A stretch of DNA of 25,062 bases from positions 1 through 25,062 of IMG/VR virus record IMGVR_UViG_3300021079_000033. The stretch is one strand, 5' to 3'. The stretch comes from a virus. Under the pieces are notes generated by a model that was given only the letters and a program-made list of their open reading frames with translations, did not search any database and was not told the origin of the DNA. Positions 20,583 through 24,827 of this stretch are shown piece by piece (within the stretch, counting starts at the first letter, position 1; every line of letters starts with the position of its first letter). The translations under genes were made by a program, and so were the position numbers.

Positions 20583-20903
20583 TTAGCTGGCATCATTGCA
20601 ATGGGATTGCTCCTTTAAACTGTTGGCTATCGCCAGATAAGCTGCAGCATCTTCCAATGAATCCTGATGATGCCCTTTAGAAAGTCGCGCGATTTTAAGC
20701 AGTGCCATCATGATTGCAACATCATAGGGAGTGGTTTTGCAGTCGGTGTAGGTCTGCCAGTACAAAGCAATTTTAGCCAGGCTAATTGCTGGGGGTTCAT
20801 ACTCGCTGGCTCGTTCCCTAATCAGGTCATAGCACCTCTCAAAGAATGCGCTGATGTTTTCATGTTCATCTGGTGGTAGATGTGGGATGGATTGGTTAGT
20901 CAT
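20583..20903 (-). CDS. DUF6378-like phage protein
   Basis: 106 residues. The C-terminal half, TTPYDVAIMMALLKIARLSKGHHQDSLEDAAAYLAIA, carries the pattern (DVAxMMxLLKxAR, then DSxxDxAxY) seen in a family of small phage proteins of unknown function. The N-terminal half is helical. The conserved acidic residues in these helices recall all-alpha nucleotide hydrolases of the MazG type, but this is only a resemblance. The ATGA overlap with the upstream gene indicates co-translation. Confidence 0.65.
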   Translation of the reverse strand: MTNQSIPHLPPDEHENISAFFERCYDLIRERASEYEPPAISLAKIALYWQTYTDCKTTPYDVAIMMALLKIARLSKGHHQDSLEDAAAYLAIANSLKEQSHCNDAS

Positions 20904-21181
20904 TGTTTAGGCCTTTTAGTTTTTAGTATCTGACGATTGGTTCGATACTTTGCTTCAATCCATCTTTGAACATAGGCATCTATGTGTGCTGATACTTCTT
21001 GAAGAAGCAATCGCCTAGAAGAATACCTGATGTCCAGATAGGTTTCTAAGGCTCTCTTGATCACCTTCATCTGTCGTTCTTTTAAAATGTCTGGTTCATC
21101 TTCCATCTGGTGCTGGATGTTTTGTTTGATCGCTGAGCCATCACCTTTCATGAAGGGTAAGAAGGTTTGCTGGTCTTTCAT
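20900..21181 (-). CDS. Hypothetical basic helical protein
   Basis: About 93 residues from ATG 21181, one base after the upstream stop; a GTG at 21190 is an in-frame alternative. Strongly helical and basic in its C-terminal half (YSSRRLLLQEVSAHIDAYV, then KYRTNRQILKTKRPKQ), which may bind nucleic acid. Glu/Gln-rich in the middle. No family recognised. It overlaps the next gene by ATGA. Confidence 0.55.
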   Translation of the reverse strand: MKDQQTFLPFMKGDGSAIKQNIQHQMEDEPDILKERQMKVIKRALETYLDIRYSSRRLLLQEVSAHIDAYVQRWIEAKYRTNRQILKTKRPKQ

Positions 21182-21182
21182 G

Positions 21183-22031
21183 CTATGCACCTAGCACTTT
21201 CAAACACCAGTTTTTTAATTCTAAAAATTCTTCATCGCTTGCTGCTATGAGATTCTTCATATGCAGTTTTTGTGGGTTATATAAAGACAACACTGTCCTG
21301 CAAAGAAGTTGTCTGTCCCAAGATCCAATTTTTCTTGTTTCAATTTGTTTTAAAAGTGCAAGACCTCTTGAATTTAAAGTTCTTCTGTTCTCATAACTAG
21401 CTGAACACTTCACCAAGTCATCATAAAATGGAAGTAAAACATCATCCCTGCCAGTTTTATCAATCCAGTAAACAAGACAAATAACAGATATTGATGAGGA
21501 AATTATTTTTGCTCTGACCTTGTTTAAACGATTATCAATTAAATCTTCAATCGTTATTACACGATCATGCATATTATTTAATAAATAATTTCGAGCGTTA
21601 TCTATTTGAGTAAAAGTGCAATCTCTTTTCCATGTAATTTGAAAAAAGCTGCTAATTAATGCGCTCAAATTTTTCGACATTTTATGGATGTCACCATTGC
21701 TTCTTGAGGCTCCAACATCTAAATACTTAAAACTATCTTCTGGCAGATTGCGTGTCACAAATGATTTGATTGTGATGCCAGACAAAATGACAGCATTTAA
21801 TCTATGCTGACCATTTAACAAGCGACCATTAACATCAAAACTAATACTCTGGTCATTTAATATCCATTCTCCCTTTTCCATAAAAGAAGCATATTTTCTA
21901 ATTACATGTACCCGCAGTTTTCTATTATCTTTGTTTTGCAACAGATATTGTTTAGCCAGAGTAGGGGTAATTAACACCAATCTTGTGGATGGTTCAGTAG
22001 GTTCGCAATGGTCTTGAATTGAAGTTGACAT
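21183..22031 (-). CDS. ParB/DGQHR-like phage protein, AT-rich
   Basis: 282 residues, ATG behind AAGAAGGA. The N-terminal domain (about 20-100) has TPTLAKQYLLQN, then VHVIRKYASFMEKGEWILNDQ, a strand FDVNGRLLNGQHRLNAV, and GITIKSFVTRNL. The GQHR motif and surrounding strands match the ParB-like nuclease/DGQHR fold present in many phage proteins of uncertain function. The C-terminal two thirds is helical and unassigned. The gene is visibly richer in A and T than its neighbours, with many TTT and AAA runs, and lies behind the only sizeable gap in this part of the operon. Recent acquisition as an accessory gene is plausible. Confidence 0.7.
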   Translation of the reverse strand: MSTSIQDHCEPTEPSTRLVLITPTLAKQYLLQNKDNRKLRVHVIRKYASFMEKGEWILNDQSISFDVNGRLLNGQHRLNAVILSGITIKSFVTRNLPEDSFKYLDVGASRSNGDIHKMSKNLSALISSFFQITWKRDCTFTQIDNARNYLLNNMHDRVITIEDLIDNRLNKVRAKIISSSISVICLVYWIDKTGRDDVLLPFYDDLVKCSASYENRRTLNSRGLALLKQIETRKIGSWDRQLLCRTVLSLYNPQKLHMKNLIAASDEEFLELKNWCLKVLGA

Positions 22032-22094
22032 GGTAATTCCTTCTTTGATTGTTGTTGTAATTGTTTGTGTTTTTAAATATCAGGCTGGCTAGTT

Positions 22095-22109
22095 CTGACA
22101 ACAAGTCAG
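22095..22109. other. CTGAC/GTCAG inverted repeat in leader of the ParB-like gene
   Basis: A perfect 5-bp inverted repeat around five bases, about 65 bases upstream of the ParB-like start. It could be an operator half-site pair or a small RNA hairpin. A TGACA element is also found repeatedly in the early promoter region at 24.7 kb. No convincing promoter was found beside it: TTGTCA lies nearby but the matching -10 is poor. Confidence 0.35.
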
Positions 22110-22141
22110 GTGTGTTACTAAGCCAATCTCAACTGGCACAA

Positions 22142-22247
22142 ACCAACCTGATAAGCGCATGAATATTAATGATGCTGGTGGGTGGGTAACAGCATCCCCA
22201 TCGAAACCCCACAGAAGATTAACTGTGGCCACCCCAGATGGGTTGGT
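22142..22247 (-). ncRNA. Candidate structured RNA: three-stem multibranch fold
   Basis: This gap segment starts at the base after the SSB-like stop codon on the transcript. Pairings, all perfect: P1 ACCAACC (22247-22241) with GGTTGGT (22148-22142), closing the structure; P3a CATC (22240-22237) with GATG (22202-22199); P3b CCACAG (22228-22223) with CTGTGG (22214-22209); P2 GATGCTG (22196-22190) with CAGCATC (22177-22171). GGGTGG in the P3 internal loop can also pair with CCACCC in the P2 loop. No T run follows, so it is not an ordinary terminator. I cannot match it to a named RNA family. Confidence 0.45.
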
Positions 22248-22700
22248 CTAGAAGGGCAGGTCATCCAGTTCAGCCTGAAGTTCTGCATTGGATTCTGATA
22301 GTTCATCAAGACCAATGGCAGGGTAGCCATTAGAGGTGGTGCTTTTATGAAAACTCAGGATGTGATTAGTCAAGGTCTCACCTGCCTTGATCAACTCATT
22401 TTCGTAAGGCTTATTAAACTTTGGACCCCATGACTCAACATCAAAGCCAATCCTACCCAAGCTGGTTAGCAGTCTTCTGAAATCAGCATCAGTCTTTAGC
22501 CAATAAGTGATCTGAGTTTCAACCCCTGCCAACATCACTTTGATCTGGTAAGTCTGTTTTTTCTCACCAGTTTCCTTGACAGTTATTTCAACAAAACCAG
22601 CAAAAGAAATCTTGCCAGAGTATTTGCCATCAGCCAGATCATTAGCCTTGGCAAACTTTGATTGCTGTTTCAGATCTTGCTGCACATTCATAAAATCCAT
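22248..22700 (-). CDS. Single-stranded DNA-binding-like protein (DUF669-type)
   Basis: 150 residues, ATG behind TAGGAG. After a short helical start, the sequence has a beta-rich core (GKYSGKISFAGFVEI, then KKQTYQIKVMLAG, then TYWLK) that resembles an OB-like or DUF669 single-strand binding protein. The C-terminus ends ELDDLPF, a close match to the acidic DDIPF tip through which bacterial SSBs recruit partner proteins. It follows a RecT/Bet-like gene and a Gp157-like gene, the normal phage recombination cassette. The core resemblance is by eye; the acidic tip is clear. Confidence 0.7.
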   Translation of the reverse strand: MDFMNVQQDLKQQSKFAKANDLADGKYSGKISFAGFVEITVKETGEKKQTYQIKVMLAGVETQITYWLKTDADFRRLLTSLGRIGFDVESWGPKFNKPYENELIKAGETLTNHILSFHKSTTSNGYPAIGLDELSESNAELQAELDDLPF

Positions 22701-24776: not shown

Positions 24777-24808
24777 AAAAAAAGCCAGCAGGGGTTTTCC
24801 CTACTGGC
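24777..24808 (-). terminator. Intrinsic terminator ending the right-edge gene
   Basis: On the minus strand GCCAGTAGGG pairs with CCCTGCTGGC (one A-C mismatch), followed by seven T (24783-24777). It lies 19 bases after the stop at 24828 and before the early promoter, separating the two transcription units. Confidence 0.85.
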
Positions 24809-24827
24809 TATATTTAGGATAAAAATA

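Follow-up and report, generated by a model that had tools for sequence, protein, structure and literature searches.

Genomic location of the element

The DNA analysed here, referred to as the window, is the stretch of 25,062 nucleotides covering positions 1 to 25,062 of the IMG/VR virus record IMGVR_UViG_3300021079_000033, and the element described below and its two flanking genes lie on its minus strand. The upstream gene (22248..22700) encodes an SSB-like protein of 150 aa with a predicted OB-fold and the C-terminus DDLPF. The downstream gene (21183..22031), which is the first cargo gene of this phage, encodes a protein of 282 aa belonging to PHROG 5931 (function unknown), which had been called ParB-like in a preliminary description of the locus. 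The gap between these genes contains a real structured RNA, which is bigger than and folded differently from the structure drawn in that description. According to the placement by the covariance model, the whole element covers 22077..22244 (168 nt, minus strand), starts 2-6 nt past the stop codon of the SSB-like gene and consists of two domains and an unpaired linker. This folded RNA of about 170 nt between two phage genes was previously undescribed, and no report of it was found in the open-access literature; it probably acts as a regulatory device within the early message.

Collection of related loci and comparison with known RNA families

A search with the SSB-like protein yielded 14 viral contigs. 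In each of them the sequence behind the stop codon was highly similar, while the following gene differed in most. Pattern scans for the 3′ end, the P2 loop and the 5′ end increased the collection to a total of 41 loci, including the window. The patterns themselves prescribe some of the P2 loop and P4 sequence, and the loci retrieved by the protein alone served as a control for this bias; the P2 loop was equally invariant in them. A profile of the three lineages of SSB-like proteins detected 39 loci, all in contigs already carrying the element. Two alignments were used, A1 being generated with MAFFT and A3 being a model-based alignment of 40 rows, fitted to the model, of which 27 are distinct; the relatives comprise the same number of distinct full-length sequences (n = 27). 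The covariance model R1 gave 40 matches in 40 loci, and the window scored 174.1 bits (E 3e-50), a match by construction because the window is part of the training set. Each of the 41 viral contigs carries one copy of the element, and the extra weak matches overlap the element on the opposite strand.

The element was not found in isolated phages and plasmids, and no relative of the SSB-like protein was found in isolated phages. Phages that have Gp157 or the cluster 2 protein in common with these loci were devoid of the element in the stretches fetched. Moreover, the profile of the SSB-like protein gave no match in the sampled genomes of the phyla of loci L110, L118, L080 and L113 or in the order of L110, and the RNA model gave none in the latter order. 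A degenerate scan of genome contigs returned matches at about chance level, and none of the twelve loci that were checked with the model, among them five viral matches of the pattern scans, was confirmed.

The scan against Rfam 15 that had been proposed in the preliminary description resulted in no match at the gathering cut-off for the window and six relatives. With a threshold of up to E 10 the window again had none, and only unrelated matches far under the cut-off were obtained for L027 and L054. The element is thus without a match to a curated RNA family, yet no locus found for the phage SSB-like family lacks it. Positional analogues are the STAXI motif and the L17 downstream element (PMC2864571). 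The STAXI motif (RF01728) is likewise a structured RNA with pseudoknots close to SSB genes, but there the pseudoknot is repeated two to three times and occurs in Enterobacteriales, whereas the element described here is present in a single copy with another fold and without tandem repeat. The L17 downstream element (RF01708) is similar as a potential 3′-UTR right after a gene for a nucleic-acid-binding protein, with its strand assigned from G-U pairs; however, it belongs to the gene for ribosomal protein L17 of Lactobacillales and Listeria, was not matched here, and the present element is always followed by another gene. GOLLD and ROOL are structured RNAs known from metagenomes and often phage-borne; unlike the element, they have a length of several hundred nucleotides and form large oligomeric complexes, and they were not matched either.

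Secondary structure of the two domains

The first domain is composed of three helices. P1 (22197..22242, minus strand) pairs CCCAUC at 22237-22242 with GAUGGG at 22197-22202 and encloses the P3 hairpin; it is paired in 27/27 sequences, its last pair varies among the relatives between C-G, U-G and U-A, and its consensus across the alignment is CCCAU(C/U)/(G/A)AUGGG. The P3 hairpin (22209..22228, minus strand; CCACAG at 22223-22228 with CUGUGG at 22209-22214) has four of its five modelled pairs changed on both sides. The P2 hairpin (22171..22196, minus strand; GAUGCUG at 22190-22196 with CAGCAUC at 22171-22177) carries the invariant loop ACCCACCCA, is 100% paired and shows changes on both sides in 4 of 7 pairs. 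A possible pseudoknot (22180..22234, minus strand) would be formed by GGGUGG at 22229-22234 and CCACCC in the P2 loop at 22180-22185. The G tract (within 22197-22234) keeps two mutually exclusive partners in all relatives, namely the pyrimidine tract that would extend P1 and the P2 loop; these dual partners constitute a possible switch. Competing pairs (10-46, 11-45 and 12-44) were also seen by RNAalifold.

The domains are joined by the single-stranded linker AUUAAUAUUCAUGCGCU (22154..22170, minus strand), which is 17 nt long, unpaired and A/U-rich, and the UAUUNAUG part of which is invariant in the alignment. In the second domain (22078..22153, minus strand), P4 pairs UAUCAGGUUGG at 22143-22153 with CCAGCCUGAUA at 22078-22088 and closes a three-way junction formed by P4, P5 and P6. 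P4 is 100% paired, with double changes in 3 of 11 pairs as well as G-U and U-G variants. The P5 hairpin GCCAGU/AUUGGC (22122..22137, minus strand) has double changes in two of four modelled pairs and is 88.9% paired, at a position where the alignment is uncertain. The P6 hairpin CUGAC-UUGUU-GUCAG (22095..22109, minus strand) has double changes in 4/5 pairs and occurs in the allelic forms CUUGC/GCAAG, CGAAC/GUUCG and UUUGAC/GUCAAA. The unpaired regions of the element are also very well conserved in sequence in alignment A1.

The preliminary description had placed the RNA on the minus strand directly after the stop codon of the SSB-like gene, and this was borne out. Its 7-bp P2 and its 6-bp P3b, the latter corresponding to P3, exist in the window, and almost every one of the 27 distinct relatives is able to form them. 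The proposed loop pairing GGGTGG-CCACCC is pairable in 27/27 distinct sequences, but it never varies and therefore gains no support from covariation. The closing helix proposed as P1 (ACCAACC/GGTTGGT, 22241-22247 with 22142-22148) had to be abandoned: all seven pairs can be made in the window and in three near-identical relatives, no other sequence reaches more than five, and the true partner of GGUUGG is CCAGCC at 22083-22088. The limits 22142-22247 were too narrow as well, since the fold extends to 22077 and a P4-P6 domain of about 76 nt had been missed. The three-way junction as drawn was wrong, the RNA having two domains with the junction in the omitted part. Folding of the noted segment alone gave an MFE of −31.1 kcal/mol with a z-score of −0.15, no better than shuffled sequences, a value that is misleading because of the wrong boundaries. 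Together with the empty Rfam scan, this value would by itself have refuted the proposed RNA, and it was the comparison with the relatives that reversed the verdict.

Support for the fold and its coding strand

In alignment A3, the six helices pair in 98.5% of the cells, compared to 20-46% in controls with slid partners, and 17 of the 38 pairs are changed on both sides. For the same structure including the pseudoknot, 95.1% were paired in A1 versus at most 49% in the control, and RNAalifold recovered P1, P2, P4 and P6 unaided. Mapping onto a tree revealed 28 compensatory double changes in 15 pairs, while the slid versions had 0-1. In a tree-aware test of single pairs, 3/41 pairs passed E 0.05 across all column pairs, individually significant pairs being located in P6; the small number is due to the little power provided by 27 close sequences, and the covariation claim is carried by the tests at the level of helices and by the event counts. 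Regarding the covariation that the preliminary description had proposed to examine, compensatory changes are thus present in the fold, but its own P1 is broken in the relatives.

On the minus strand, 56 G-U wobbles were counted versus 2 A-C mismatches, and this excess indicates that the working strand is RNA of the coding strand. Folding of the sense strand with full boundaries gave a z-score of −3.1 in the window and values from −2.1 to −6.6 across the 27 relatives, all 38 of the 38 consensus pairs are present in the MFE structure of the window, and the sense strand is more stable than the antisense strand. Taken as a comparison of aligned sequences, a structured RNA on the coding strand is strongly supported by covariation.

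A coding role of the region was considered and rejected. In the window, the ssb reading frame continues beyond its TAG for about 52 codons without another stop, but it is closed after three codons in L027 and other relatives, and indels of 1-2 nt are frequent among them. Read-through of the ssb stop codon therefore has no support, nor does translation of a leader peptide from the invariant AUG.

Gene neighbourhood and the cargo slot

To the left of the element the gene order is conserved, with the cluster 2 protein, Gp157 and the SSB-like protein, and to the right it is conserved with DUF6378, replication genes and RusA. The number of genes between the RNA and DUF6378 varies from zero, as in L032, to four, and they represent some twenty families. 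Annotated cargo includes HNH, AlpA and GHKL ATPase genes, besides a MUG113 match that is weak and sub-threshold, and further cargo families are ParB-like as judged by eye only. In the window the slot comprises 20583-22031, and there and at the equivalent places of the 41 loci the genes are unrelated from phage to phage. Some cargo pairs travel together, such as the ParB-like and GHKL ATPase genes in L037 and L068. Judged by these gene orders, the element forms the left boundary of a slot occupied by unrelated cargo genes. The comparison of L039 with L048 revealed an identity of 54% for the upstream coding sequence, 98% for the element and 51% for the downstream sequence, so that by alignment the element is an island between flanks of chance-like identity. 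The neighbouring genes are exchanged freely while the element stays, which makes it a handle for finding accessory genes (endonucleases, ParB-like, AlpA-type and GHKL ATPase genes) and for studying how phages control acquired genes.

The high identity of the element between flanks that are not related, its place at a mosaic-exchange breakpoint and the recombinational look of the early region in these phages could also be read as signs of an element acting at the level of DNA, either as a recombination landing pad or as a site of single-strand replication or priming with hairpins. This reading is very unlikely, as the G-U bias of 56 to 2 on one strand would not arise from a DNA cruciform and a search of the slot's right edge revealed no noncoding element of this kind. 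The element may have an additional role as recombination homology.

On either side, the limits of the conserved island match those of the folded unit; in addition, the island does not depend on the neighbouring genes, and its unpaired regions are very well conserved. These features would also suit a phage small RNA cut from the early mRNA and acting in trans on host RNAs or proteins. Such an RNA seems improbable, since a conserved upstream promoter is ruled out by the ssb coding sequence being only 54% alike there, the 3′ end has no terminator and the place next to ssb is constant.

Leader sequence and transcription signals

Between P4 and the following gene lies the unstructured, G-poor leader AUUUAAAAACAC... 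(22032..22078, minus strand), which contains the Shine-Dalgarno sequence. UUAAA is present in 22/23 distinct leaders versus 58/337 other upstream regions, a contrast whose P value is inflated because the leaders are partly related by descent. The unpaired probability of the leader is 0.63 compared to 0.47 in controls; leader and Shine-Dalgarno sequence are unpaired and the ribosome binding site is not sequestered. This bears on the riboswitch-like leader put forward in the preliminary description, here taken as an RNA that would sense a ligand for the downstream gene. An elaborate conserved fold in a 5′ leader and a G tract with two always-available partners would be in line with it, but an expression platform is missing, the leader and Shine-Dalgarno sequence being unpaired and no terminator being present; moreover, different phages have unrelated genes at the next position and Rfam gave no match. 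A riboswitch is therefore scarcely credible.

No intrinsic terminator, i.e. a GC-rich hairpin with a T run, was detected at the element, and the earlier statement that it is not a simple terminator stands. A simple scan showed no promoter-like site near the element. Strong terminators on the coding strand of the window are located at 24783-24809, before the early genes, and at about 12.2 kb, after the early part of the capsid-portal stretch, with none between; relative to the element, the first is about 2.5 kb upstream and the second about 10 kb downstream. No strong intrinsic terminator was found in the cargo region of the 41 loci. As the element has no recognisable promoter or terminator of its own and a fixed place, it is probably a cis-acting RNA in the early mRNA. 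The two other roles considered in the preliminary description, a processed small RNA and a transcription control element, both keep some likelihood.

A control element of the latter kind could resemble HK022 put, whose nascent RNA binds RNA polymerase, acting on the zinc-binding domain of the beta′ subunit, and renders it resistant to pausing and termination, here through the cargo and later genes. Both would act in cis in a phage early transcript and serve any downstream gene, the independence of protein partners and cargo is compatible with this, and put acts on terminators 10 kb away, including Rho-dependent ones (PMC9378689). However, put is about 70 nt long with two stem-loops near the early promoters, whereas the element has 168 nt, six helices and two domains in mid-operon, about 2.5 kb past the terminator preceding the early genes and apparently not at a promoter; the cargo regions, in addition, hold no strong intrinsic terminators to read through. 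An analogue of put is accordingly judged unlikely.

The distance of about 10 kb to the next intrinsic terminator in the window has also been taken as an argument that the transcripts must be cut rather than ended. An RNase could cut the linker at UAUUNAUG and split the early mRNA, with domain 1, which begins 2-6 nt after the stop codon, capping the ssb message at its 3′ end and domain 2 shielding the message for cargo and replication genes at its 5′ end, so that both would be expressed independently of the cargo. The two compact domains with their 17-nt unpaired linker, the independence of SSB lineage and cargo, and the processing of the T4 gene 32 mRNA by RNase E, including a site near the stop codon (PMC3014915), are consistent with such segmentation and stabilisation of the mRNA. 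Simple hairpins would suffice for stabilisation, however, and a conserved fold this precise, with loops that do not vary, points to a specific partner; furthermore, the linker fits an RNase E consensus weakly, and such matches are frequent by chance. This explanation is conceivable but rather doubtful.

The SSB-like protein as a candidate regulator

The ORF upstream of the element belongs to the SSB-like family in 40/40 element loci having an upstream ORF. The family comprises three lineages that share about 40% identity; its members end in D(D/E/Q)LPF or NDLPF, and it has no Pfam or PHROG match (window 22248-22700). The predicted model resembles OB-fold ssDNA-binding proteins, with PrgE (8s4t, E 4.8e-5) as best Foldseek match, and the predicted OB-fold appears closer to this plasmid protein than to canonical SSB.

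In phage T4, a pseudoknot serves as the nucleation site for gp32, which then coats the adjoining UUAAA leader and blocks the ribosome (PMC535899, PMC3014915). The arrangement described here is similar in that an SSB-type gene is accompanied by a possibly pseudoknotted RNA and then by an unstructured UUAAA leader overlapping the ribosome binding site. An operator like that of T4 gene 32, acting on the next gene, is ranked first among the functions considered, although by analogy and only tentatively. The polycistronic early mRNA would carry the element, folded as two domains, from the ssb stop codon to the first cargo gene. SSB-like protein in excess of its ssDNA ligand would nucleate on the folded, probably pseudoknotted RNA and spread in 3′ direction across the unstructured UUAAA leader, and translation of whichever cargo gene follows would be blocked. 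The observed fold, conservation, strand, place, linkage to the SSB family and UUAAA leader argue for such an operator, and we infer the pseudoknot, the transcription as a single mRNA, the binding of the SSB-like protein and the repression. The independence of the element from the cargo gene would suit a general valve. It is a rather doubtful proposal that the element represents a new RNA family, a valve read by SSB, in which SSB exceeding ssDNA would lead to translational shutdown of any gene recombined into the slot.

Several observations speak against the operator. The element follows the SSB-like gene and precedes an unrelated one, whereas the T4 operator precedes gene 32; the T4 pseudoknot comprises only about 28 nt, compared to about 168 nt and six covarying helices here, which leaves the elaborate second domain unexplained. 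In addition, the P6 allele CUGAC was found with all three SSB lineages, the RNA helix alleles do not track the SSB lineage, and loci of lineages A and B share 98% identity in the element; assignments of P2 alleles were not used, as they are unreliable with labels that also match P6. The missing co-segregation of RNA and SSB lineages fits a common partner, such as host machinery, at least as well. If the SSB-like protein does read the RNA, this would add a second and independent case of translation under SSB control, a mechanism described in detail for T4-like phages, and the idea is testable with two small components.

Further features were noticed outside the cargo slot. In L020, L016 and L038, a second variable site downstream of the replication gene holds an inserted PAPS-reductase-like gene (cluster 40, assigned by sequence motif only). 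At positions 1-2095 of the window, a long tail-fibre-like ORF with a run of PT repeats runs off the window end.
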